A stretch of 43,263 nucleotides of DNA from the IMG/VR virus record IMGVR_UViG_3300037584_003690, positions 1-43,263 of that record. One strand, 5' to 3'. Below are positions 4,075 to 35,824 of the stretch, piece by piece. This DNA is from a virus. The position numbers and the translations under genes are program-made. Position 1 is the stretch's first letter. Every line of letters starts with the position of its first letter. The notes below the pieces were generated by a model. It was given only the letters and a program-made list of their open reading frames with translations. It ran no database searches and was not told the DNA's origin.

Positions 4075-4326
4075 ATGGCAATAACTAGAAAAATATTAAA
4101 AGATAAATACAATTTTAAAACTATAAAAGATAATAAAAAAGTATTAGTACGCAAAATAGGCGGAGCAGAAACTTTAGATTTACATGGCAGTGCTCTATGT
4201 TTTAGAGGTGAAGTAATGATGACTTTAGAATGTATGTCAATAAAAAGTTTTGAGGGTTATTTGGAAAAATTAATAAGAAGTATAAAAAAAAGAAATGAAA
4301 TTAAAAGTAATAAGAATAAGCAGTGA
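4075..4326 (+). CDS. Hypothetical basic protein, 83 aa
   Basis: A compact lysine-rich protein with alternating short strands (KVLVRKIGGAETLDLHGSAL) and a C-terminal helix ending in a polybasic tail. I recognise no family. It overlaps the next gene by 32 nt, so the polybasic tail codons also encode the start of the DUF5675-like protein. No signal peptide or membrane segment. Confidence 0.5.
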   Translation: MAITRKILKDKYNFKTIKDNKKVLVRKIGGAETLDLHGSALCFRGEVMMTLECMSIKSFEGYLEKLIRSIKKRNEIKSNKNKQ

Positions 4327-4774
4327 AGCGGACTCAACATCGGGAGTGTTGTTTGATGTTACGGATCCTGATAATAAAAAATTTTTAGCATATACATTAG
4401 AAGATGAATATAGAGATGCAAAAAACGAAAAAGTCATGCACGAGACAAGAATCCCGGCTGGCGAGTATAAAATTATACTTAGAACACATGGTGGAACGCA
4501 TCCGAGGTATGCTAAAAGATTTCCTGATATTCATCGGGGCATGCTTCATGTTATTGATGTTCCTAATTTTAAGTATATTCTCATTCATTGTGGCAATGAT
4601 GATGAGGACACGAGTGGGTGTTTACTTGTGGGGGACACACAGAAAAACAACCAAGTCGAGAAGAACGGTTATATAGGAAGCTCTTCTAAAAATTATGCAA
4701 GAATTTATCCTGCTATTGCAGCTGCATTAGAAGCAGGAGAGGAAGTTACAATTAAATATGTAGATTATGCCTAG
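4295..4774 (+). CDS. DUF5675-like protein, candidate peptidoglycan-active lysis protein
   Basis: This 159-aa protein shows the DUF5675 pattern in order: an N-terminal strand with TSGVLFDV, a LEDEYRDAK segment, IPAGEYKIIL (about residues 54-63), HPRYAKRFPDIHRGMLHVID, then ILIHCGNDDEDTSGCLLVGDT with conserved His, Cys, Gly, Asn and a second Cys near residues 98-114. The arrangement recalls L,D-transpeptidase-like folds, and the family is frequent near phage lysis genes. An endolysin or wall-modifying role is inference. It overlaps both neighbours (32 and 8 nt). Base composition is more GC-rich over the conserved core than in adjacent genes. Confidence 0.75.
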   Translation: MKLKVIRISSEADSTSGVLFDVTDPDNKKFLAYTLEDEYRDAKNEKVMHETRIPAGEYKIILRTHGGTHPRYAKRFPDIHRGMLHVIDVPNFKYILIHCGNDDEDTSGCLLVGDTQKNNQVEKNGYIGSSSKNYARIYPAIAAALEAGEEVTIKYVDYA

Positions 4775-5012
4775 AGAAAAATATGATCATGAAATATTAG
4801 CAGAAGCAATGAATTATGCTTATTTAATTGTAACAAAAAAAGCTACATTTGAAGATCTTGTAGATAAAGAAGATGAGGTAATGTTACCTTATAATATATT
4901 AGAAGAAGAAGACGTAAATTTTGAAATGCTTATACAGTACTTTGAAGAAGAGGAAGAGTATGAAAAATGCGCAGATTTAATGAAAATAAAAAAAAGTAAA
5001 GAAAATAAATAA
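4767..5012 (+). CDS. Acidic hypothetical protein, 81 aa
   Basis: Overlaps the DUF5675-like gene by 8 nt and ends with TAATG shared with the next start. It is strongly acidic with runs of Glu (NILEEEDVNFEMLIQYFEEE) and is helical throughout. No family is recognised. Its charge and length recall small anti-host or DNA-mimic proteins, but equally any small accessory phage protein. Confidence 0.5.
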   Translation: MPREKYDHEILAEAMNYAYLIVTKKATFEDLVDKEDEVMLPYNILEEEDVNFEMLIQYFEEEEEYEKCADLMKIKKSKENK

Positions 5013-6058
5013 TGAAAAATATAATAATTTTAATATTATTTTGTGTAAATATTTTATCTGCACAAAATAATTTTTTTAAGTATTCCACCTTTTATACATC
5101 GATGTCTACAGGTACATCTTATATAGAAGATCAGGATTATACAGCGGTAGATAAAGGTTATACTGAAGTAACAGATGTTAATCCCTATGACTATAATTTA
5201 ACTATAGGGCTAAGAAAAATAGCAAGATTTGATTATGAATATAAAGTTAAAACATGGTATTATGGTACTGAAGACAATATTGCAGATAATGTTACTATTG
5301 GTAATTCTGTTGGTTGGGAGTATCTTTTTAATTATTCGTTTATACGTAATCGTGGTGATAAGTTTACTGAGCAAAATTTCTGGCTTAGATACTTGGGAAA
5401 TAGCTGCGTAACTAAAGTACAATATACAAATAACCAAAGAATAGATTTAAAATATACTTCCTTTGATACAAGATATAGAGTAACTAAAGGAAACTGGGAT
5501 TTTACATTAGGTGGGGTTTTGCGTATACATCCTGTATACGGATTTTCACCAATAGATGATTTTTGGGTTCCAGGAGAGAATACATTCCAAGATCTAGCGG
5601 AGGATTTTGGTTATGCTTCAGAACAGTGGGTCCAAGGATTTTACGTCAACCAAAACTGGTATGACGTCAGTGGTGGGGATTCATTATTGATCGCTACCTC
5701 CAATGATGAATTCTACCACCACTTTTTTGGGGACGCGGTTGCCAGATTTAATGAACAAGAGTTAGAAAAACTAGGAGATCAAAAAGAGCTTAGTGTTGTA
5801 TTTGGTTTAGCTTACTATAAACATACACCTAAGTTTTGGTTACATGCTTGGACTAATGTAATGCCATATCATTATGGCTTAGATGAATATTCTTATGTTT
5901 ATGAGGATGGTAAAGATATGCTTGAATGGGATGCTGGAATGGTTCTGGGTGCTAGAATTACGAAAAATTTAGGTATATTTGTGGAAGGCACCCATCAAAA
6001 GTATTGGGGTAAACCAATCTTTGATGTTAAATTTGGGTTTAACTATTTAATATTTTAA
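5012..6058 (+). CDS. Secreted outer-membrane beta-barrel candidate, 348 aa
   Basis: A clear Sec signal peptide (MKNIIILILFCVNILSAQ) cleaves after residue 18. The remainder alternates aromatic strands with polar turns: YDYNLTIGLRKIARFDYEYK, then FWLRYLG, then WDFTLGGVLRI. It closes with the strand FDVKFGFNYLIF, whose terminal Phe is typical of outer-membrane barrels assembled by BAM. It is therefore likely placed in the host outer membrane. It directly precedes a second secreted protein (3-nt gap). Possible roles are receptor masking (superinfection exclusion), envelope change during lysis, or a virion protein exported through the envelope; the sequence does not decide. Confidence 0.6.
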   Translation: MKNIIILILFCVNILSAQNNFFKYSTFYTSMSTGTSYIEDQDYTAVDKGYTEVTDVNPYDYNLTIGLRKIARFDYEYKVKTWYYGTEDNIADNVTIGNSVGWEYLFNYSFIRNRGDKFTEQNFWLRYLGNSCVTKVQYTNNQRIDLKYTSFDTRYRVTKGNWDFTLGGVLRIHPVYGFSPIDDFWVPGENTFQDLAEDFGYASEQWVQGFYVNQNWYDVSGGDSLLIATSNDEFYHHFFGDAVARFNEQELEKLGDQKELSVVFGLAYYKHTPKFWLHAWTNVMPYHYGLDEYSYVYEDGKDMLEWDAGMVLGARITKNLGIFVEGTHQKYWGKPIFDVKFGFNYLIF

Positions 6059-6061
6059 AGA

Positions 6062-6769
6062 ATGAAAAGAATTATATATATATTACTTGTGTTTATTGGC
6101 TCGTTCGTCAATGCACAAGGTTACGATTTCCAGGAATTATGTTTAAACTGTGCTGATCAAAATGGATATTATTGTGGAGATGATCCAGCTAACTGGACAC
6201 AATATGCTCCATTAGGATGTGTACAAACCTCTTGGTTAAATGATGGATGGGAAGATTGTGTGGATGCAGGAGATGAAAATGGCGCAGTACCAACTTTACC
6301 TATAAATTGTCAACCACCTATAGAACCATGTGATACAGTATATGTAGATGTACCAGTATTTATAACAGATACATTATACATAGATAACTTTATTTTTGAT
6401 ACTATTGTACAAACAGAGTATATAACACAGATAGTTATAGATACATTAGAAGTAGAAGTGTTTGTTCCTGAGTACATATATGTTACAGATACACTATGGA
6501 TGGAAGGAGCTTTAGATACTTTATTTGTAGATGTTATTGAATATGTAGAAGTTACTGTATTTGATACAATAATAGAAACAGAGTATGTAGAATTTTTCGT
6601 AGTTGAGTATATAGACTGCGATACAAATGAGCCATGTGGTAATTCACAAATTATAGAAATAATGAAAGGATCTTTTGGATCTGATATTATGTATAATTTA
6701 AATGGACAGGTTATAAGAAAACCAGAAGGAATATATATCCAAAATGGCGAGGTAAAATATAAATTCTAA
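6062..6769 (+). CDS. Secreted repeat protein with a T9SS-like C-terminal signal, 235 aa
   Basis: The signal peptide is MKRIIYILLVFIGSFVNAQ. A mature domain with six cysteines (residues 20-95, CLNCADQNGYYCGDDP) is followed by a repeat region (residues 95-190). That region is built of alternating aspartate-aromatic strands such as DTLYIDNFIFDTIVQTEYI, likely an extended beta stalk. The last 26 residues, MYNLNGQVIRKPEGIYIQNG plus EVKYKF, closely match the YDLxGRxVxxPxkGiYIxNGKKxxx ending of Bacteroidota type A T9SS cargo. The protein thus looks equipped for Sec export followed by T9SS delivery to the cell surface. Its neighbours are an outer-membrane barrel candidate upstream and a tail fibre downstream. 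Confidence 0.65.
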   Translation: MKRIIYILLVFIGSFVNAQGYDFQELCLNCADQNGYYCGDDPANWTQYAPLGCVQTSWLNDGWEDCVDAGDENGAVPTLPINCQPPIEPCDTVYVDVPVFITDTLYIDNFIFDTIVQTEYITQIVIDTLEVEVFVPEYIYVTDTLWMEGALDTLFVDVIEYVEVTVFDTIIETEYVEFFVVEYIDCDTNEPCGNSQIIEIMKGSFGSDIMYNLNGQVIRKPEGIYIQNGEVKYKF

Positions 6770-9781: not shown

Positions 9782-10126
9782 ATGACAAAAGAATTATCGG
9801 AAAATAGCAAATTTCAAGTTAGTATAAAAACTCTAATAAGTATAGTAGCAGCAGTTATTACTGTTGTTTCTTCTTATTTTGGTTTAATGAGTACTATTAA
9901 TTCTAAGTTTTCAGAGCTTGAAGATAAAGTAGAAAAAGCATTAGAAATGCCTAAACCAGGAACAGGTACTTATACAATAGATATGGGTGATCCTGCTGCT
10001 ACTAATACATGGCCACCGACTCGTATGGAGTTTAATATGAAAGATCAAATGGCTCGTAATAAAATAGATCAAGTAATTAAAGATCTAGAAGATTTAGAAG
10101 AAGAATTAAAAGAATTAAAAAAATGA
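9782..10126 (+). CDS. Membrane-anchored coiled-coil protein, 114 aa, possible lysis accessory
   Basis: A short polar N-terminus is followed by one transmembrane helix (residues 16-36, IKTLISIVAAVITVVSSYFG). Then come a short coiled coil (KFSELEDKVEKALEMP), a Pro/Gly linker and a second strongly charged helix (residues 80-114, DQVIKDLEDLEEELKELKK). This is the layout of inner-membrane spanin or holin-associated proteins. The secreted thioredoxin-like protein follows with a 4-nt overlap, and a holin-like gene lies 750 nt downstream. A lysis role is inferred from topology and neighbours. Confidence 0.6.
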   Translation: MTKELSENSKFQVSIKTLISIVAAVITVVSSYFGLMSTINSKFSELEDKVEKALEMPKPGTGTYTIDMGDPAATNTWPPTRMEFNMKDQMARNKIDQVIKDLEDLEEELKELKK

Positions 10127-10500
10127 AAAAATTAATATTAATACTGCTAATAGTGTGTTTAGCAAATATAGGTTACGCACAAGAAGTAATTAACAAAAAT
10201 AATTTTAAGAATAAGGTAGCTAAAGATATAGTAGTAGTTGAGTTTTGGGCTGCATGGAATGCTTCAAATGAATTTAAAGAATTAATAAAGTTAAAAGAAT
10301 GTAATGTTTATAGAATAGATATAACATCTGATATGGATTTACAAATGGATTATAGTGTTGAGGCTATACCCACTGTAATTATCTTTGAGAATGGAACAGA
10401 AAAAGAAAGGTTTAAACCTAATATTATGTTTCAATTAGATGCTGATAAAAAGACAGTTCAAAATTCTATAGATACATTACTATTAAATAAATTTCAATAA
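10123..10500 (+). CDS. Secreted thioredoxin-fold protein lacking the redox cysteines, 125 aa
   Basis: A signal peptide (MKKLILILLIVCLANIGYAQ) precedes a compact thioredoxin fold. The strand VVVEFWAAW leads to the active-site loop, and the cis-proline strand AIPTVIIFENG (Pro83) is intact. At the catalytic site the usual WCxxC reads W45-N46-A47-S48-N49: both cysteines are asparagine. The protein cannot do dithiol exchange by the standard mechanism, so a binding or chaperone role in the periplasm is more likely. The only other cysteine in the mature part (Cys60) is far from the loop. It overlaps the upstream membrane protein by 4 nt. Confidence 0.7.
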   Translation: MKKLILILLIVCLANIGYAQEVINKNNFKNKVAKDIVVVEFWAAWNASNEFKELIKLKECNVYRIDITSDMDLQMDYSVEAIPTVIIFENGTEKERFKPNIMFQLDADKKTVQNSIDTLLLNKFQ

Positions 10501-10501
10501 T

Positions 10502-10858
10502 ATGTATACATACAAAGCAAAATTAGATAGAGTAGTTGATGGTGATACTATCGATGTTAATATAGATCTAGGATTTGATATTAGTGTTCACAAAAGAGTA
10601 AGACTGGCTGGTATAAATGCGCCAGAATCTAGAACAAGAAATCTAGAAGAAAAGAAAAAAGGTTTAGCTGCAAAAGCTAGATTAATAGAATTATTAGATA
10701 AAGGAAGTCTTGTTGTAGAGAGTAAAGAACTGGGTAAATATGGTAGAGTAATAGGTACTTTAATTATATATCCAGATGACTTAAACTTACCTATTAATGT
10801 TAATGAAGCATTAGTAAGTGAGGGACATGCTGTCGAGTACGATGGTGGGAAACGTTAA
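10502..10858 (+). CDS. Staphylococcal-nuclease-like (SNase) protein, 118 aa
   Basis: Shows the SNase OB-fold signature: RVVDGDTIDVNID with the two metal-binding aspartates, RVRLAGINAPES with the catalytic Arg and Glu, and KYGRVIGTL with the second catalytic Arg, ending in a HAVEYDGGKR segment close to the family consensus. The expected activity is calcium-dependent cleavage of DNA or RNA at the 5' side of phosphate. It has no signal peptide, although it is encoded beside exported proteins. It could degrade host DNA or process phage DNA. At 118 aa it is a minimal single domain. Confidence 0.85.
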   Translation: MYTYKAKLDRVVDGDTIDVNIDLGFDISVHKRVRLAGINAPESRTRNLEEKKKGLAAKARLIELLDKGSLVVESKELGKYGRVIGTLIIYPDDLNLPINVNEALVSEGHAVEYDGGKR

Positions 10859-25003: not shown

Positions 25004-28000
25004 ATGGCAGCAGAAAAGTGGAAAAAATTAGTATTAGGTAATAGTGTAAAACAAGATAACGATAGTTATCCTCCTGTTTTATCCAGTACTCCAGCAGCAT
25101 TTAGTGCTCCTGCGGGTACTGCGTCAGTAGCAACTGATGCGGCTTATAACCCTGGTGTATCTTATTCTGCAGGTGATTTATTATTCTATACAGATGGTAA
25201 AACTGTATATGATTCTACTGGTGCTATCATGAATGGTGGTACTTTAAATGGATTAAATGGTGATAATAAATCAGCTCAAACAGCTGTAATTCTTAAAAGT
25301 AGTGAAACTCATTATTGGTGGATACTAACACATAATCCTGCAAACGGAAAAATCTATGTGCATAATGTTCTCATGACTGGTAATAGTGGTCGTGGAACAG
25401 TAGCTCAGAATCAAACTATAACTAGTGGTGGTTCAGCTGCTGGTTTTGTAGCTGTATCAGGCGCAACTACTGATAGGTTTAATGCTTTCTATAGTTCAGT
25501 TACAAGTCAGTATGGTTTTATGACACATTTAAAAGGTTCTAATAGACATGAGGTCTTTTTAATAACAGGTGTATCTTCACATCTTCCTGTATTTGGTTCT
25601 TTAGTTACAACTGCTATAGGTAATGTTTATGCAAATAATGATGCAGCTAATCATGCTACCATTAAGTTTAATGGAGATAATACAAAAATGGCTACTGTTT
25701 ACCAAGCATCTGTTGGTACTTCAGGAACTCCTGTTACAACTGCTACAGTAGAAGTATATGATCTTAATCCTGCAACAGGTGTACTTTCTGCTTTTAATTC
25801 TTTTACGGTTCCAATTAAAGATGCAGGACCTGTATCTCCAGGAAAAGGAAATGATGGTAGATTAAAAGGTTATGATTTAGAATGGGACTTTGATACAAGT
25901 ACATTATATGTTCCAGTATATGATGCAAGTAATGGTTTAGGAGTTAATTGGTATACTTTAAATGCTAGTAATGTTGTTACAGCTCAAGGGACTGTAGGTA
26001 AATCTATGAGTTCTTTAGGAAATAATGTTGATAAAGCCATATTTGGTATGTATAAAGATCCATATGCTGATCGTATATATTTAACAAAACCAGCTGTTGT
26101 AGGAACTTCAGGTGGATATAGTTCTGACTATAATGATATTTATGCTACTAATTCATTATCTGTAATAAGAGATACATCAGATCCTACTAATTCAGAGTTT
26201 ACTGAAACTGTTGCAACAACTGTTGCGGGAGACACAATAGGTAAAGGTACACCTACTAGACCTCTGGCAGGTGAAGGAACAACAGCAACAACTTCTTATC
26301 ATAGATTAATTCCATGTGATACTCAGAAAGAGTATATAATGGATACACTAGGATCTATTTGGGTTCTAGACGGAGTACTAGATGCTACGAAAGTTGCAGA
26401 TGTAAGTTCTATTTCTAATAGAGTAAATATAGCAGTACAGAAAGAAACTAACTTTATTTACTTATTAGCAGGTACAGGAGCTACACCAAAGATATATAAA
26501 ATAGATCCTGTTACAGGAAATGTTGATGCAGGTACTACTGTAAGTGGTACATCTATTACAGGATTCAAATCTATATCTAGTAAAAATGGGGATCCTCTTA
26601 AATTATATGGAGTAGTTGAAATAACTGGTCCTCACTATAATTATGCAGAAATAGTAATTGCTACAGGAGTGGCTACTAAAACTGCAGGTAATACAGCACA
26701 TGTAGCAGTAGATACTGCTTATATAGGTAGTACTTTATATATGGCATCTGGTGATGATCTATATAAAAATACAGGTCCAGGTACATGGGCTACTGTAGGA
26801 GCAAACACTTTAAGTAAAGATTATGAAGGTTTAGCTACTGATGATACTACATTATATGGTTATATAGAAGGTAAAAGATATACTATTAATACATCTACAG
26901 GTGCAGCTACTGATGGTAAAAGTATTACAATTAACTCAAGTACAGGTACTTGGAACTATACTGCGCAAGGTGCTGGTATAGTTAACGTAGCATATATTGA
27001 TACAAATAATGCATTATTAAGTCCTCATGAGGGTGATGTTGTTACAGTTGCTAACTATGCGGGTTGTTTTACTGTTTGGTTTGCAGTATCTGGTTCTGCT
27101 ACAGTAGGTGATATACTATCTGTTTCACCTGATTGTGGGTCATGTTCTGAAATTGAATCAGATCATTATTGTAAATTATTAGTAAGTTGTTGTGATTCAG
27201 GTTATAAAGGATTAGGTTTTACAAGAGAAATAGTTGGAACTAGTGATGATTCAACATGTAAAGTAGGTAGTTATTATGAAATAACAGATAATGCTCAAAA
27301 CAATGATCAGTTAAATAGATGTGTAGAAGTACAGTCTTCTGATGATTCATTATATATAATAGGGGATTCTAATGGTTATAAAGTAGACTTAACTACTGGA
27401 ATATTAGATACTCAACCTATTATAGGTGGTACTGATATAGCTTTTAATAAACATGGTGTAGGATTTATACCTAGAGGATCTTCTTTGTATTACACAATAC
27501 CCGCGAATGGTGTTGTACCTGGTGGAAGTTCTACAACTATTACTGTACCTCAATCTACTACTGTTAGTTTTAATTATTCAGATGAGCTTATTACAGGAGG
27601 TGTTGTTAGTGGTGTAACTCAAGTATCTAGAAATTCTATTAATAAAAAAGGAGTATTAACTACTATAAATACTCTAACAAATACTAATGTTCAATTAACA
27701 GGAGATCTTGCAGTAGATAAAATTACAGGTGAATATTATTGTATAGGTGATAGTTCACCTACAGCCACACCTGTATATAATGATTTATTTAAATTAGATC
27801 CTTCTACTTTAACTCATACAGTTATTGCTGATTTAACATCTACATTATCTTTGAATGCAAATCAGACTGTTAAAGCTATAGAGATTGTTAAAGATTCTTG
27901 CTTTGTACTTGTTTGGGATTCTAATAATTTTGCTTCCACTCTTTACAAAATAGTTAAAGATACAGGTGCTTTAATTTCTACATTACCTGTTATAAAATCA

Positions 28001-31000
28001 GATGGTGATACAAAATTTAGATTCCCTCCTAGTGGATTAGGTTATAATAACCCATGTCTATACTGGGATTCAGGTGCTTTTAAATTAGTAAACTATTCAA
28101 GTTGTTCTACCTGCTTTGCTTCTACAACAAGTAAAAACTGCTGTTATGAATTAGTAGATTGTGCTACAGGTATTAGTACAATTACAAGAACAGATGTGTC
28201 TGCTTATTTAGGACAGGTGATTGTAACAGATACTCCAGGTAAATGTTATACAGTATATACATATGATAATTCAATTACATGTTCTGGTGTAGATGTAAAT
28301 GTTACCTCACAATATACTGATTGTGTTAGTTGTACAGGAGTACAAACTAAGTGTTATAGATTATTAAAATGTGGTGATCCTACATCAGATCCTAAATATA
28401 CTACAGAAGCTTTAACTAAAAATATTAAAGTTAAGAGAGGTAAGACAGTTCAATTAGAAGGAGAACTATTTTGTCGTAGTGTAGACGATCTAGGAAATGC
28501 AGTTGATTTAGTATCTGCATCAGCGCAGACAATCAAGACTACTAAAAAGTCTTGCAATACATGTAATTTTTATTTAAAATTAAAACAATGTAAAGCTCAG
28601 AATATTGTAAGGTATGTTGACTATGCAAGTAGTACAACACTACATGGACATATAGGAACAGGAGCAGTTAAAATTCAAGATCTTGGTAAAGGAGAGAATG
28701 GACATTGTTGGGAAATAGATTCTACTATTTATGGACCTACCCCAACATTAAGACCTACAGCTCAATTAGTTTTATCTGCACCAGATTGTATAACTTGTAA
28801 TGCACAAAATAATGAAGCAGTTGCTCCAGCATTTGTTAAAATAAATGGGTGTTGTAGTGATTTAAATCCAGGTCAAGATTTTGGTATACAAGAATATTAT
28901 ACTACAGATAGTAATCTGCTTGCTGCTCTTCTATCAGGAGATTTAGTTTTTTGGGGAAACCTTACAGATCCTAATGGAAATCTACTTGAAGCACAGTGTT
29001 TTAAAATAGAAATGTCACCTTTCCCAATAGCAACTAACCAACTATCACAAGTACAAATTGATGGAACTAGTAGTGATGCTGATAAGTGTTTGTCTTGTGA
29101 TCCTTTTTATGTAGCAAATTGCCAGACTGTAACTTCTACTAACTCTACTATGATGTTAAGTTGTTTTGCTGATCAACCAGTTTCAGTATTTAATAGTACA
29201 TTTAGTTCTGTTGATGATGATGCTAATAGAGCATTTAATTTTGTTGAAACAGATCTTATAACAGGTTGCTGGAAAAGATGTGTCACAGCAGATTATATTC
29301 ATGGGGCTAATTGGCTTTGGGGAAAGAGTAGTCTTTTAACATGGCAAAATAGTATGGGTATAGCCACTCCAAGTACAGCTATATCGCCTACTAATATGGG
29401 TACAATAGATGCAAATTTAAATGATAATAATTTCTTTACTAAATTTGGAAGTACAGTACATAGTGCTCATGAACCTGTTACTATAGGAGGTAAAGAGTAT
29501 ACTAGAGGTGCTATAATGTTTTATTCGGATGGTAGATTTGTATACAATTCTAGTCATCTAACAATGACGGGTAGTACTAGTGGTGGAAGTCAATTATTAA
29601 ATGGAGGTGTTTCTCCTGGTGGGAATTTGCAATACGCTTCCCAACAATGTATAACGGTTCCAAAACCTGATAGTGATAGATTTCCAGGTAGTACAACATA
29701 TAAACAATATTATTTAATATATCAAAGACCAGGAAATCTTCGTCCTCAATATGCTGTTATAAATATGGATACAGCAGATGGATTAGGAGAAATAATTTCT
29801 TATAATCAAGAGTTACCTTATCTTCCTGGTTCAACTATGTATTCGACTGAAAGATTAACAGTAACATCAAGACCTGCAATAGCAGATAGTGATGAAGATT
29901 TTTATTGGGTTTTAGATGTAATACCATATGATCCTCCAACAGGACTTGTTATGGTACCTTCACCTCCGGGTAAAATACGTGCACGAAGAGTAGATTCTAC
30001 TGGAATAGGGCAACCTGTAATTACTAGCATGAGTGGTAGTATAAATGATTTACCAGGGAAAATAGATGGAGATAGACAAAATTTAAGTGAGTGGGCGCGT
30101 ATTAAAGTTTCTCCTAATAATAGTCATATAGCTATTACAGGTAATAAGTTAGGAATAGGATGGACTCAGTTATATACTTTTGATGAAAATACTGGAGAGT
30201 GTGTTGCTATTTGGCAAGACATAGTTGCTGAAGGAATGAGTACTTGTGGGGGAGACTTACCCCCAGGTGAAGGGAATGAAGGTTTTTTACCATTTACTCA
30301 TGGAGTTGAATTTGGTGATAATGCTTTATTTACTTATAAGTCTGGTATGTCTTTTACACATGCTTATCAATGTAATGAATATATGGGTGATCTGTTTGGA
30401 GAACTAGGAATGACCTGGGTTAATAATGGTGGGATATGGGAAAGTCAAACTAGTGTTAATACACTAGGAATGGGACTTCCAGCTACAAGTAAGCCTATTT
30501 TATCATGGGTTAATTTAGATACTTTAGCAGAAGGACAACAAACTCAAGACATAGATCAGTATTTACCATCGGTTGGATCTACTTTATTTAAAGTAAGTAA
30601 TCCATCTACAAGATTACAAAATCAAATTCCAGGTGACTTAGATTTTAATCCACAATGGTGTGCTGATGGATTCATTGAGAAACCTAATGTAATAAGACCT
30701 CTACTACAAGCTAGTATTGTAACAGATTTACATAGAGGTCCTGATGGAGCTTTATATGCAGGACTTGTATTAGGTAATTCTTCAGGTAGTATTTCAAATC
30801 AAGTAAATTGGAGACAAACATTTTTAGGTATAGGAGAATTAACTCCTGAGTATGATTTTACTTTTCAAGGAGCTGCTAATACTAGTGAGTGGAATCCTCA
30901 ATTAGACGGTAATAGTTCACAAAGAATTGCTTCTACTAGATGTTTAAGAAAATTTAATATTAGTAATATATTAAATGGTGATCTGATTACTCCAAGTATC

Positions 31001-34000
31001 AATGATGCTGAAATGGATGGGTATGTATTACCATCAGGAGACGCAGCTCATTTAATTAGAAGGCAAGTTCTTGCTAATGACTCTACAATAGATTTTGGAT
31101 TTCCTCAGTTTATAAAACGTAGATGTTTTTCAGATGATAATAATGCTCTTGCACTTACAATTCAAAATGATAATTTTAGTTGTGCTACCTCAAATCTTTT
31201 TGGAGAATGTTTTAATCTTCCAGATAATCCTGATGTATTTAAAATAGTTAATTGTGGCCAAAGCTCTGAAGGATGTGCGAGTGCAAATGATTGTCAAGAC
31301 TTTACGCCAGGTACAGCAATACAATTAGATGGAGAAAGCCAAAGATTTGGAATGACTGAATATTTAAATCAAGATATATGGGATGCAGTTCAGCAATTAG
31401 CCTCAGGACCTCAAGCTGTATACATGACTTACAGTTTTCCAAGAGAAGGTAGTATAACTCCTAGTAGTTATTATTCTTCAGCTTGTATAGGTGAGTCACC
31501 TGGAGCAGGTGATTTTGCTAGTGGTCAGTTTACTATACCTAAACATGAAAGTGGTCCTACTACAGATAATGCTCAAGGTAATGGTAGTAATGGTGTTATC
31601 TATGATAAAACTTATACAATAACAGAAGCTCAATTTAGAGCAGAAGTAGGTAAAGCTTTTGCTCAAGTTTCACAATTATTTGAAAGTACTTTTAGTCCTC
31701 AGAATGGTTACCCTAATCAGTTAACTTTACGATTTACAGATCTTGGAAAAGAAACAGGTACAGATTCGGCTTTGCCGACTTCTGATTTAGATAATTGGAG
31801 TACAAGTGCTCCAATAGGTTTTACAACTACAACGGGTGCTTCAGGTGTTGGAGATTTTAGAATATGGATGGGAAGAAGATCTGATTGGTGTTATACCAAT
31901 GGTGGTAATCCAGGAGGATTTCAAACTAGTGGATGTACCGGATGTAATTATACAGGATCGGCTAGTGGTGCTTTAGCTTGGGCTACTGGACCTAGTATGT
32001 TTAATGTTACTGCAGGTTATGATGGAACTTCTGGTACATATAATACAGATTCATCTACAGCATTTAGAACAAACGGGAGTCAAAATATAATATTTGACGT
32101 TAACGAAAATTGGAGAAAGACTACTGATACACAAGTATTTGGTACTATAGAAATATTAAGAGTTGGTATTCATGAAATCTTACATTCATTTGGATTTCAT
32201 CATGCTTATGAAAGTATGGCTTTACAACCTAATTGTCAAGGAACAACAGGTTCTGGAACAACAGGTTCTTTTGTAGCTCAGGGAGGTTTTACATGTTCTG
32301 AAAATGGTATATATAATACTGGGTGTAATGCAAACCCTGGTAGTTTTGGGGATCCTGATGCGATAATGGCCCCGACTGCAGATAGTACTAGCTTTACAAG
32401 TATTTATGCTCCTGGAGAAGATACTGCTTATGATCCAACTGCTTGTTATATGAGTGGTGGTTCTGCAGCTGCAATTCAAGATAGAACAATGGTTTGTCAG
32501 ATTTATGGATTTGGATTAGGAGATGCTCCAGATACTTTCTGCGAACCTTTTGATTGTCCTCTTTGTGTATCTCAATTTTATTATTCTGATGACGAATTAT
32601 TTTGGCCGTATGTTGGAGAAGCAGGTAACAATACTTCATTTACTTGGGATCCAGGAACTGGATTATCTTGTTGGTATGCGGAGCTTGCAGGTACATTACC
32701 AGAAGGCGAATCTCTTACTACAATAACTCCTGTTGCAGGTTATATAGATTGTGATGCTTGTAATGTACAATTTCAAGATCCTAGATGGAGATTAGTTTTA
32801 TGTGATGAGTGTCCAGAAAATGCTGGGAATGGAGCACCTGGTGAAATTATTACATCTACTAATATGAATGTTCATTGTACTCCTGGAGCTCTTGATGATG
32901 ACCCTTCAATTTCAGATGTACTTGAATTAGTAGGATATATAGGATGTTATAAAGTAGATTGTGAATACGATCCTTATTTAGATTATCAAACTGTTGCAGT
33001 ACCAGTAGTTGTATCACAAATACAAGATAATTGTGACACATGTTGTAATGCAACTGTTACACAATGTTATACAGTAACACAATGTGCTGATACAAATCCA
33101 ATAAGTTTTGTGATGATTGGAGATCAATATTGGGGAGGTATTTCTGATTTAGGAGATTATGTATTTAAGTTTGAACAATTACCTGCTGATGTTTTAGCAT
33201 TAGGTTTGACAAATGATGATTGCTTTACTGTTGCATATTGTGGGCAGTGTAATCAAACAACTTGTAATCCTTTAATAGGCCCAGGTCTTTTAACTGTAAT
33301 AGAATCGTGGCCAGGATGTTATAGTTGTTTATATGAAAATCCTAATCAAGATTGTTTTACATTAGTTTGTTGTGATAGTAGTGGAGATCAATTAATTAAT
33401 GTTTTACCAAATGCAGATTTAAATAGTGCATTTGCTTCAGGATCGGTTGTAAGAATAGATCAATATCCAGACAGTCAAGGTAATCCTAGATGTTGGAATA
33501 TTGAAACTCAAGATATATGTAATCCAGAAATAGCAGTAACAGTATCAGATATATTTGTTAACTGTGGATTTTGTACTGCGGGATCATCTATAGGTGGTTG
33601 TACTGATCCAAGCGCATTAAATTATTGTCCAGGATGTGTTACATGTTTATCACAAACAGGTGTTTTGAATGATTGTTGTATATATGAAGGATGTCCTTTA
33701 TCTTGTCAAGATCCAACTGCTACAAATTATAATCCTAACAATACATGTGATTGTAGTGGAGTAGAAGGTGGAAGTGACACTTCATGTTGTAGTTATCCTG
33801 GAGTAGTTATTCCACCAGATGGTATTGAAGTAACTTATGAAAAAGATTGTGTTAATTGTTTAGACTGGACAACTGTAGATAAAGTATTTACAAATGCTGG
33901 AGAATTATGTGGATCTTGTTTTCCTCCTAAAGGATTAACATTACGAGAATATGATTGTAATTTATCAAATGTAGAAACTATAATTCCTCCTATAGAAGTT

Positions 34001-35824
34001 CCTGGAGGATGTACTAATCCAGATGCATTAAATTATGATGCAGCAGCTGAATGGGATGATGGTTCTTGTTATTATACATCTGCATGTACAGATCCTAATG
34101 CATGTAACTTCGATCCTAGTGCAGTTGAAAATATACCAGGTGAATGTATATATCCAGGACAATGTGGATGTCAAGATTTTACAGACTCATGTGTTGGATG
34201 TCTGGATTTAACAGCCTGTAACTATTGTGCAGATTGTACTGTTGCTGATAACTCATTATGTGAATATGCATCTTGTTATGGGTGTACAGATCCGGAAGCA
34301 GAGAATTATTGTCCAGAATGTATAATGTGTCCAGATGCTGCTTGTTGTGCTAGCAATGTACAATCATGTCTTGATAATAGAAATATATATGTATTTTATG
34401 ATATGACGTCTATATATCCAAGTACCTCAGGAGAAGTAAAACTTCAAGCATGTGCAGATCTTAGAAATTTAGTAGAAGCTGCTATGGCACAAATATTGGA
34501 TGATAATAATATAACTAATTTTAGTGGTAATATTTATCATCTACCTGTAGGTTACTCGTGGTTTGGAAAAATAACAGTTACAAATTGGAAAAACAGTAGT
34601 ACTGATCCAGCAAATTGGGATGCTTATGAAACTCCTACTAGCGGAACTCAGGATAGTAACAGGAGTGCTTATTGGTGGCAGAATGTTTATACCGCATCTA
34701 CTTTTAGTATTGATTTTCCAGGAGCTAATGATGTTTTAGCTAATTATGACAATCAGATGGGTCAACTTCTTACTGGAGGTAGTGAAAGATGGATAAAATG
34801 GATGATGTACCCAATACATGGTAATTCTCCATCTTTACATCCTAATTTAAGAATACCTTTCTCTACTGTAAATGATGTTTATAAAACTACAGGAGAGGAG
34901 ACTCCCGATCTAACTGACTCAGCACGTCTTCTTATTAAGTCTATGAATTCTAATGGCTTAGATCAAAATGGTAATTATGTAAATAATTTACCTGGTACAC
35001 AACTTAATCCATTTAATGATCCACCAGGCGAAGAAGGGTTTAGTGATGTATATCATGCATTTGAAGGTGGGGATACTAATGCTATTTGTCTTATGTTTGT
35101 AGATGAATCTAATCCTGTGTATCATACACAAGAGAATTTGGAATTTAATAGTAGTACTCTCCAGACCTGGCAGAACGAGTGTGGTCCTGGTATATTAAAT
35201 AATTCTACTGGAAGTTCTGGTAATGCATCGTGGTATGGCACAGGAGATGCTGTAGATGTTTATGATACTTATATTACTACACCTTTATGTATTGATCATA
35301 CTAGATTTACTGAGGCTTGGAATTATGGGTATGATACGAATGGAGCAGCTTCTATGACTATTAAACACGCTAATGGACCAATAGGTACTGGTTATGCAAA
35401 TGGTAATTTTAATGCTATTATATTCCCTACTAAAATGTCAGGCACGCCTGGAGGTTTAAATAATCAAATGTTTTGCTCAACTTTATATGGTGTTGTAGGA
35501 CAAGGAAATCCTTCAGAGTTAGGTCATATCAGTTGTGCAGACTTTATAGATTTACCTTGGACTAGCGCATGCGCAAGTATGGCTCCTTATACAGATACGA
35601 ATTTTCCTAATCCTTACTCATGGTTAGGTAATTCTAATGTAACTACTGCTTTACATGATGGTTCAACTATTCCTCCTGGTAGATATAGTTCTCAAGGATT
35701 TAGTTTAGCTAATTATGGAGTAACTTTTAAAATACCGGGAGCAGGTCAAGAATTCCTTACAATAAGTCAAGATGATTTAGCAGACGCAATACTACAAGGA
35801 TTATTGTGTAATAATGAGGGATAA
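25004..35824 (+). CDS. Giant cysteine-rich adhesin with metzincin protease motif, 3606 aa
   Basis: One uninterrupted frame. Residues 1-480 and about 1440-2060 look like beta-propellers of Bacteroidota surface proteins, with LLFYTDGKTVYDSTG near residue 55 and IMFYSDGRFVYNSSH near 1501. CxxC-bounded modules of the form CYxLxxC...CWxV recur at about 710-760, 1030-1370 and 2515-2855. A zinc-protease domain lies at about 2080-2510, with HEILHSFGFHH (His2390, Glu2391, His2394, His2400) and a later Met-turn, DAIMAP (Met2455). GCTDPxAxNY repeats fill about 2865-3117. A C-terminal domain opens NIYVFYDMTSIY (about 3126). No signal peptide, so it is probably a virion tail adhesin rather than an exported protein. 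Confidence 0.8.
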   Translation: MAAEKWKKLVLGNSVKQDNDSYPPVLSSTPAAFSAPAGTASVATDAAYNPGVSYSAGDLLFYTDGKTVYDSTGAIMNGGTLNGLNGDNKSAQTAVILKSSETHYWWILTHNPANGKIYVHNVLMTGNSGRGTVAQNQTITSGGSAAGFVAVSGATTDRFNAFYSSVTSQYGFMTHLKGSNRHEVFLITGVSSHLPVFGSLVTTAIGNVYANNDAANHATIKFNGDNTKMATVYQASVGTSGTPVTTATVEVYDLNPATGVLSAFNSFTVPIKDAGPVSPGKGNDGRLKGYDLEWDFDTSTLYVPVYDASNGLGVNWYTLNASNVVTAQGTVGKSMSSLGNNVDKAIFGMYKDPYADRIYLTKPAVVGTSGGYSSDYNDIYATNSLSVIRDTSDPTNSEFTETVATTVAGDTIGKGTPTRPLAGEGTTATTSYHRLIPCDTQKEYIMDTLGSIWVLDGVLDATKVADVSSISNRVNIAVQKETNFIYLLAGTGATPKIYKIDPVTGNVDAGTTVSGTSITGFKSISSKNGDPLKLYGVVEITGPHYNYAEIVIATGVATKTAGNTAHVAVDTAYIGSTLYMASGDDLYKNTGPGTWATVGANTLSKDYEGLATDDTTLYGYIEGKRYTINTSTGAATDGKSITINSSTGTWNYTAQGAGIVNVAYIDTNNALLSPHEGDVVTVANYAGCFTVWFAVSGSATVGDILSVSPDCGSCSEIESDHYCKLLVSCCDSGYKGLGFTREIVGTSDDSTCKVGSYYEITDNAQNNDQLNRCVEVQSSDDSLYIIGDSNGYKVDLTTGILDTQPIIGGTDIAFNKHGVGFIPRGSSLYYTIPANGVVPGGSSTTITVPQSTTVSFNYSDELITGGVVSGVTQVSRNSINKKGVLTTINTLTNTNVQLTGDLAVDKITGEYYCIGDSSPTATPVYNDLFKLDPSTLTHTVIADLTSTLSLNANQTVKAIEIVKDSCFVLVWDSNNFASTLYKIVKDTGALISTLPVIKSDGDTKFRFPPSGLGYNNPCLYWDSGAFKLVNYSSCSTCFASTTSKNCCYELVDCATGISTITRTDVSAYLGQVIVTDTPGKCYTVYTYDNSITCSGVDVNVTSQYTDCVSCTGVQTKCYRLLKCGDPTSDPKYTTEALTKNIKVKRGKTVQLEGELFCRSVDDLGNAVDLVSASAQTIKTTKKSCNTCNFYLKLKQCKAQNIVRYVDYASSTTLHGHIGTGAVKIQDLGKGENGHCWEIDSTIYGPTPTLRPTAQLVLSAPDCITCNAQNNEAVAPAFVKINGCCSDLNPGQDFGIQEYYTTDSNLLAALLSGDLVFWGNLTDPNGNLLEAQCFKIEMSPFPIATNQLSQVQIDGTSSDADKCLSCDPFYVANCQTVTSTNSTMMLSCFADQPVSVFNSTFSSVDDDANRAFNFVETDLITGCWKRCVTADYIHGANWLWGKSSLLTWQNSMGIATPSTAISPTNMGTIDANLNDNNFFTKFGSTVHSAHEPVTIGGKEYTRGAIMFYSDGRFVYNSSHLTMTGSTSGGSQLLNGGVSPGGNLQYASQQCITVPKPDSDRFPGSTTYKQYYLIYQRPGNLRPQYAVINMDTADGLGEIISYNQELPYLPGSTMYSTERLTVTSRPAIADSDEDFYWVLDVIPYDPPTGLVMVPSPPGKIRARRVDSTGIGQPVITSMSGSINDLPGKIDGDRQNLSEWARIKVSPNNSHIAITGNKLGIGWTQLYTFDENTGECVAIWQDIVAEGMSTCGGDLPPGEGNEGFLPFTHGVEFGDNALFTYKSGMSFTHAYQCNEYMGDLFGELGMTWVNNGGIWESQTSVNTLGMGLPATSKPILSWVNLDTLAEGQQTQDIDQYLPSVGSTLFKVSNPSTRLQNQIPGDLDFNPQWCADGFIEKPNVIRPLLQASIVTDLHRGPDGALYAGLVLGNSSGSISNQVNWRQTFLGIGELTPEYDFTFQGAANTSEWNPQLDGNSSQRIASTRCLRKFNISNILNGDLITPSINDAEMDGYVLPSGDAAHLIRRQVLANDSTIDFGFPQFIKRRCFSDDNNALALTIQNDNFSCATSNLFGECFNLPDNPDVFKIVNCGQSSEGCASANDCQDFTPGTAIQLDGESQRFGMTEYLNQDIWDAVQQLASGPQAVYMTYSFPREGSITPSSYYSSACIGESPGAGDFASGQFTIPKHESGPTTDNAQGNGSNGVIYDKTYTITEAQFRAEVGKAFAQVSQLFESTFSPQNGYPNQLTLRFTDLGKETGTDSALPTSDLDNWSTSAPIGFTTTTGASGVGDFRIWMGRRSDWCYTNGGNPGGFQTSGCTGCNYTGSASGALAWATGPSMFNVTAGYDGTSGTYNTDSSTAFRTNGSQNIIFDVNENWRKTTDTQVFGTIEILRVGIHEILHSFGFHHAYESMALQPNCQGTTGSGTTGSFVAQGGFTCSENGIYNTGCNANPGSFGDPDAIMAPTADSTSFTSIYAPGEDTAYDPTACYMSGGSAAAIQDRTMVCQIYGFGLGDAPDTFCEPFDCPLCVSQFYYSDDELFWPYVGEAGNNTSFTWDPGTGLSCWYAELAGTLPEGESLTTITPVAGYIDCDACNVQFQDPRWRLVLCDECPENAGNGAPGEIITSTNMNVHCTPGALDDDPSISDVLELVGYIGCYKVDCEYDPYLDYQTVAVPVVVSQIQDNCDTCCNATVTQCYTVTQCADTNPISFVMIGDQYWGGISDLGDYVFKFEQLPADVLALGLTNDDCFTVAYCGQCNQTTCNPLIGPGLLTVIESWPGCYSCLYENPNQDCFTLVCCDSSGDQLINVLPNADLNSAFASGSVVRIDQYPDSQGNPRCWNIETQDICNPEIAVTVSDIFVNCGFCTAGSSIGGCTDPSALNYCPGCVTCLSQTGVLNDCCIYEGCPLSCQDPTATNYNPNNTCDCSGVEGGSDTSCCSYPGVVIPPDGIEVTYEKDCVNCLDWTTVDKVFTNAGELCGSCFPPKGLTLREYDCNLSNVETIIPPIEVPGGCTNPDALNYDAAAEWDDGSCYYTSACTDPNACNFDPSAVENIPGECIYPGQCGCQDFTDSCVGCLDLTACNYCADCTVADNSLCEYASCYGCTDPEAENYCPECIMCPDAACCASNVQSCLDNRNIYVFYDMTSIYPSTSGEVKLQACADLRNLVEAAMAQILDDNNITNFSGNIYHLPVGYSWFGKITVTNWKNSSTDPANWDAYETPTSGTQDSNRSAYWWQNVYTASTFSIDFPGANDVLANYDNQMGQLLTGGSERWIKWMMYPIHGNSPSLHPNLRIPFSTVNDVYKTTGEETPDLTDSARLLIKSMNSNGLDQNGNYVNNLPGTQLNPFNDPPGEEGFSDVYHAFEGGDTNAICLMFVDESNPVYHTQENLEFNSSTLQTWQNECGPGILNNSTGSSGNASWYGTGDAVDVYDTYITTPLCIDHTRFTEAWNYGYDTNGAASMTIKHANGPIGTGYANGNFNAIIFPTKMSGTPGGLNNQMFCSTLYGVVGQGNPSELGHISCADFIDLPWTSACASMAPYTDTNFPNPYSWLGNSNVTTALHDGSTIPPGRYSSQGFSLANYGVTFKIPGAGQEFLTISQDDLADAILQGLLCNNEG

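Follow-up and report, generated by a model that had tools for sequence, protein, structure and literature searches.

How a phage protein that carries both an export signal and a C-terminus resembling that of type IX secretion system (T9SS) cargo is put to use, and whether it acts alone, are the questions raised by the open reading frame at 6062–6769 on the plus strand of a 43,263-base virus record, the whole of which is called the window here. The window is part of the genome of a crAss-like phage (Crassvirales). It has matches to the crAss-type ring proteins PF25710, PF25702, and PF24228, families of terminase, portal, and head proteins are matched as well, and its TerL is ~41% identical to that of human-gut crAss-like records; the 6062 gene is co-oriented with the terminase, portal, and head genes. 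A terminase check of 50 of the 88 loci at which a gene of the 6062 type was collected, mostly on long contigs, found phrog_6681, the crass-type TerL, in 47 of the 50. Judging from record names (e.g., a Neomarinimicrobiota MAG), these phages and the related genomes are probably marine. The window also contains a single ORF of 3606 aa at 25004–35824, which has a weak matrixin-peptidase match below the cut-off (E 9.3e-5) and is without a PHROG match.

The gene starts with ATG and encodes an exported protein of 235 aa with a T9SS-like C-terminal tail. Its signal peptide (6062–6115; MKRIIYILLVFIGSFVNA) is followed by Gln19, which cleavage would expose as in the Q rule; next come a Cys-rich head with an LDLR-A-like acidic motif (6116–6331; NDGWEDCVDAGDE) and a stalk in which I, V, T, E, Y, and D are abundant (EY/DT-rich; 6332–6604) and for which model confidence is low. 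The C-terminal module (6605–6766) consists of EYIDCDT..PC followed by GNSQIIEIMKGSFGSDIMYNLNGQVIRKPEGIYIQNGEVKYKF, and includes a short helix and the tail MYNLNGQVIRKPEGIYIQNGEVKYKF. Signal peptides were called by a simple rule of our own rather than by SignalP, and among the 43 window genes tested the rule was passed by four, namely 5012, 6062, 10123, and 9782; the N-terminus of 9782 is more probably a membrane anchor than a signal peptide. The structural model of the 6062 product has a mean pLDDT of 50.8, with most of the head at ~73–85 and the tail region at ~60; the C-terminal part, at that confidence of ~60, contains only a helix and short strands and no Ig sandwich, and a hairpin of strands 223–227 and 230–234 is predicted in the low-confidence part. 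A fold search with this model gave nothing usable.

Relatives of the protein were collected in two scans of viral contigs, the first yielding 28 relatives and the second the best 80 of 227, which form the set of 88 loci; none was found among 50,697 phage records. A signal peptide is present in 87 of the 88, the remaining one being cut by the contig end, and Gln19 is invariant in 22 of 22 aligned relatives; as this is the residue that cleavage would expose, its invariance fits the Bacteroidetes Q rule described in PMC10367356. The tail follows a strict pattern in 83 of the 88 loci and a visible variant of it in 4, with 1 cut by the contig end, and a looser test (Y/F-x-x-x-G, an IYI-like strand, and Lys within the last 8 residues) is passed by 87/87 uncut tails. 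Since it is kept across the viral relatives, the tail is more than a chance resemblance. In the 82 relatives measured, the stalk is between 41 and 167 residues long, and the number of Cys residues among 87 relatives is nine in 82 and ten in 4, the last being a fragment. The preliminary description had reported this ORF with an AQ-ending signal peptide, with which the present data agree, and had named two observations that would speak against its T9SS reading, namely the lack of a profile match and homologues that are virion proteins without signal peptides; the relatives, with their signal peptides, are not of the latter sort.

A constant partner of this gene, located at 5012–6058 on the plus strand, was overlooked in that description. 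It encodes a signal peptide (MKNIIILILFCVNILSAQ) and a predicted 12-strand outer-membrane beta-barrel that ends in FGFNYLIF; the AlphaFold2 model has a mean pLDDT of 69.5 and a pTM of 0.67. In the structure search, nearly all matches listed were outer-membrane or designed beta-barrels, the best being Tsx (Z 15.3, rmsd 3.6, 184 residues aligned), and the structural neighbours also included NanC, KdgM, autotransporters, OMPLA, and FapF. Because these neighbours span many functions, no function of the 5012 product is drawn from them. The structural matches listed do not include PorV or PorP, and the barrel may still share their fold. NCBIfam and Pfam hold models for the PorP/SprF and PorV families, and the 5012 sequence gave no match in these collections at E up to 10, those families included; nor did it match the sequences of solved structures at E up to 10. 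A match among the 50,697 phage records (E 5) was at chance level and was set aside. The last residue is F in 76 of 87 barrel homologues, and the barrel is more conserved than the 6062 protein, with a mean column identity of 78% (18 members) against 55% (22 members).

The barrel and 6062 pair is near-constant in a broad set of crAss-like phages. A barrel homologue lies upstream of the 6062-type gene in 87 of the 88 loci, and the exception (L025) is a contig that starts inside the 6062-type gene, at base 2, and carries a barrel at its other end (L166), an arrangement that is consistent with a circular genome. In the reverse direction, 80 of 80 barrel loci have a 6062 relative downstream, at a distance of up to 1.3 kb in 79 cases and of 1.5 kb in the other; the two linkage sets share contigs and are not independent samples.

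The claim that the C-terminus is T9SS-like was to be checked by profiles of the TIGR04183 type, and on this point the outcome formally counts against it. At E up to 10, TIGR04183 had no match in the window protein or in the 22 relatives scanned, the host protein L089 serving as a positive control (7e-9); PF18962 and the type B model TIGR04131 likewise found nothing in these proteins at E up to 10, and motif A, the P[NV]P of a PNP-type domain start, was present in the last 100 residues of 0/88 relatives. Other elements of the domain are present. Motif B, the loop L-beta3-beta4 with its conserved Gly, occurs in 87/87 uncut tails, as do, by a loose pattern, the last two strands with a conserved Lys (motifs D and E/C-t.). 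When a profile of the phage tails was compared with 28 host type A domains, hhalign gave a score of 19.3 with the alignment placed at the strand 3–4 loop, and 0 of 200 column shuffles in either direction reached this score, the highest being 19.0. In type A signals of P. gingivalis, the C-terminal strand and the Gly-containing strand 3–4 loop have been reported as essential, and an intact Ig-like sandwich as important too (PMC11285876); the last 22 residues of HBP35 have been reported to be enough for the export of GFP in this species (PMC4804311). The phage tail retains the loop and last-strand pieces reported to be essential and shows no sign of the remainder of the Ig-like domain. The earlier claim holds as far as likeness is concerned, through the conservation of the tail and the hhalign score, and fails at TIGR04183 membership; formally, the 6062 tail lies outside the type A sorting domain, and it would nevertheless be of that kind.

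Searches of host genomes with the tail gave a similar picture. In 249 genomes of the order of genome G001, the three best matches of the tail profile lay at the extreme C-terminus of exported host proteins (E 1.5e-4, 6.9e-4, and 3.7e-3); the tail-only profile matched 42 of the 249 at E up to 0.1, and among 30 loci that were read, 16 had C-terminal tails, either type A or short, and 14 were attributed to chance. Across 395 genomes of the phylum, a limit of E 0.01 left 8 matches, and 1 of these was accepted as a T9SS-type tail; in such broad searches the tail by itself discriminates weakly, which counts against the T9SS reading. In the PDB, 2 of the 8 sequences listed were matched near their ends, an arabinanase at E 0.043 and a beta-helix protein at 0.78, which we take to be Bacteroidota-like enzymes; since the unrelated HSH49 scores as well as the arabinanase (E 0.053), this line of evidence is weak. 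Short tails of the type YDLLGRE...LYIQNGKK were seen on exported host proteins (L097, L098, L099, L108, L263, L264, and L265). Four of the short-tailed host proteins (L097, L098, L099, and L108) have no TIGR04183 match, and a fifth, from a related group, reaches E 0.13, below the cut-off. As exported host proteins with such tails escape it, TIGR04183 has a blind spot, and for this reason the missing match of the phage tail is not fatal. Tails of this type possibly form an uncatalogued class of short sorting tails.

The strongest line of evidence that the tail is of the T9SS kind is the stalk and tail shared with proteins of a SprA-positive bacterial family. Twelve genomes of this family, to which G002 (a MAG with the name Flavobacteriales bacterium) belongs, were searched. 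A profile built from phage sequences only finds four chromosomal C-termini in it, with E values of 6e-35, 2e-23, 8e-23, and 2e-22, one per genome and in four genomes only. The proteins concerned (L255, 5379–6836; L256, 7908–9812; L257, 3895–5031; and L258, at the start) end in a phage-type tail preceded by a larger or smaller part of the stalk, and their fronts differ, being leucine-rich-repeat-like, composed of GCTDPxACNY repeats, or of another sort. A signal peptide is present in three of them, the fourth being cut by the contig start. Their neighbours, read from translations alone and with no database search, appear to be ordinary chromosomal genes, for instance those of lysyl-tRNA synthetase, Rpi, DXP reductoisomerase, and methionyl-tRNA synthetase. 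No homologue of the phage barrel was found near the four genes, and at E up to 0.1 none was found in the 12 genomes of the family, a search that had no positive control and shows little. A tree of 83 tails joins the four chromosomal ones (support 0.80, midpoint root) and is built on tails too short for the direction of transfer to be read from it. When these four tails were included in the profile, 7 of 395 genomes were matched at E up to 0.001; four of the seven match by construction and the other three matches are C-termini of exported proteins. With the full-length profile, the 249 genomes of the G001 order yielded nothing beyond the genome known before, and in the family of that genome 1 of 114 was matched.

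The T9SS translocon protein SprA was found in 12/12 genomes of the G002 family, and 39 of 40 genomes of the G001 order encode proteins with TIGR04183 domains. The chromosomal proteins with a phage-type tail are putative T9SS cargo and could follow the same display route as the phage protein or be its rivals. The proposal that the phage uses the host T9SS is accordingly upheld in part: export, a tail of the type of host surface-protein signals, and SprA in all 12 genomes of the family that shares the tail speak for it, and the absence of TIGR04183 speaks against it.

The head has counterparts of its own. PF00057 matches the window head at 16.8 bits against a cut-off of 24.1 (E 0.0081), and 20 of the 22 family members match it weakly, also below the cut-off, the best at E 7e-4. 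Residues N60, D61, D65, D68, D71, and E72 are invariant; acidic residues of this sort bind calcium in LDLR-A domains. Among chromosomal proteins, L089 combines two copies of the head with a signal peptide and the TIGR04183 tail used above as the control, L090 has a phage-type head and a TIGR04183 score below the cut-off (0.0026), and L091 also carries a Cys-rich head. The head domain was found in 4 of the 12 genomes of the G002 family (G002, G646, G651, and G653). A further match in G654 (E 4e-4, profile residues 1–56) was taken as chance. With an export signal, head, stalk, and tail that are all of host type, the 6062 product resembles a host surface protein in miniature.

Taken together, the 6062 protein is probably one half of a phage-encoded surface pair, made up of an outer-membrane barrel and a cargo exported by the host T9SS. 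Both proteins would leave the cytoplasm by Sec, and the 5012 product would fold as an outer-membrane beta-barrel, steps that are strongly supported by sequence. The 6062 product would then, as seems likely, cross the outer membrane by way of the host T9SS, which would read the short tail. The stalk may hold the Cys-rich, possibly calcium-binding head out from the cell, on the phage barrel or close to it. Our guess, held with clearly less than even confidence, is that the head masks or occupies the phage receptor, so that other phages are repelled or new virions are kept off spent cells; the block of further adsorption given as an example in the preliminary description is likewise a guess. For the latter function, T5 Llp provides a comparison, and a late role of this kind might suit the co-orientation with head genes and the lysis-like neighbours. 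Somewhat more tentatively, the barrel, as a phage-only protein, may be a dedicated dock for a stalked, T9SS-exported partner with a minimal sorting signal, that is, a counterpart of type B cargo and PorP/SprF.

The genes surrounding the pair bear on what else it could do. A protein encoded at 9782–10126 (plus strand) has an N-terminal membrane segment and a charged, coiled-coil-like C-terminus, a small protein of i-spanin-like layout without relatives in the 50,697 phage records. It is followed at 10123–10500 (plus strand) by a signal peptide and a thioredoxin fold without CxxC (PF00085, E 2.2e-10), in which WAAWNASN replaces the usual WCxxC site. A phrog_452 nuclease (E 2e-38) is encoded at 10502–10858, in a variable region, with a like gene in 21 of the 88 loci, and a further gene of the neighbourhood, 10874, encodes a protein with two TM segments. 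The DUF5675 protein at 4295–4774 (E 2.6e-23) has a weak Tlde1 match (E 0.026) and an H...SGC arrangement that resembles L,D-transpeptidases, and it is possibly a peptidoglycan enzyme.

With such holin-like, peptidoglycan-enzyme, and i-spanin-like neighbours, the barrel and the 6062 protein might be the outer-membrane parts of a lysis module, the tail serving only to target the outer membrane. The recurrence of the neighbours in the 88 loci (9782 type in 74, 10123 type in 76, 10874 type in 46, and DUF5675 in 38) and the L,D-transpeptidase-like features of the DUF5675 protein are in line with this, but no lysis family matched the neighbour or pair proteins convincingly, a stalk with an LDLR-A-like head, found also on chromosomal surface-type proteins, is not known as an outer-membrane disruptor, and the neighbours vary whereas the barrel and 6062 were not found apart; we consider a lysis function unlikely. 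An equally doubtful account keeps the 6062 protein in the periplasm after Sec export, bound to the barrel from inside by a tail that is an adaptor and merely resembles T9SS signals. The lack of a formal sorting-domain match, the lack of an Ig fold in the model, and the constant pairing with the barrel would all suit it. The same tail, however, ends chromosomal proteins of a family in which 0/12 genomes gave a barrel homologue, albeit without a positive control, and the head and repeats are of the surface-protein sort, L089 being a chromosomal head protein with a TIGR04183 tail. A virion fibre or spike whose signal-peptide-like N-terminus is incidental is very improbable: the tail-fibre-like gene 6771 lies directly 3' of 6062 in the window, but a like gene is present in only 15 of the 88 loci, and the Q-rule signal peptide is kept in 87.

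If the surface-pair reading is true, a large uncultured group of crAss-like phages uses the secretion machine of the host to remodel the surface of infected cells, through a pair that stays together wherever both sides of the locus are visible. The pair would then be a concrete candidate for the control of re-infection by such phages, the small sorting signal would bear on what the T9SS minimally reads, and a family of small-genome Flavobacteriales-type bacteria would become candidate hosts. On the more tentative reading, in which the dock and its stalked partner form a two-part surface coat carried by a broad set of crAss-like phages, the few chromosomal proteins that end in this tail would also reach the surface in this way, perhaps as competitors of the phage protein.

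Phage-encoded T9SS cargo has already been published. It has been reported that Cryophage encodes T9SS type A cargo, for which hijacking of the host T9SS was proposed, with superinfection exclusion as one option; this cargo, described in 2020, consists of a PA14 protein and two glycoside hydrolases, all with type A domains that are recognised as such, and differs between variants (PMC7468147). The 6062 protein is similar in being a phage protein with a host secretion tail, whereas it has a non-enzymatic head, a short tail missed by TIGR04183, a fixed barrel partner, and a distribution over many crAss-like contigs. In addition, ORFs with sorting domains near BACON ORFs have been described in a phage cluster (PMC6949934), and Q-rule proteins of P. 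gingivalis phages likewise have host-type signal peptides and are thought to modify the host envelope; unlike the case of the 6062 tail, the T9SS does not appear in the main text of that report (PMC10367356). The literature search, which covered few subscription journals, gave no description of a short tail of T9SS type that has a phage barrel as its partner. Compared with the type A domain, the 6062 protein shares the Y-[ND]-x-x-G loop, the G-x-Y strand, the terminal Lys-bearing strand, and the signal peptide, and differs in that it matches no profile, has no PNP start, and shows no sign of the seven-strand Ig-like domain. Barrels encoded alongside are required by type B cargo (PMC12618676, PMC9143113, PMC10202324), and the adjacency of a cargo gene to an outer-membrane barrel gene is common to type B cargo with PorP/SprF and to the present locus; in contrast to these pairs, the 6062 tail is without TIGR04131, and its barrel lies upstream, has 12 predicted strands, and matched no listed family. 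Within the literature searched, the short tail module shared with chromosomal proteins, the fixed barrel, and the crAss-like breadth look new.
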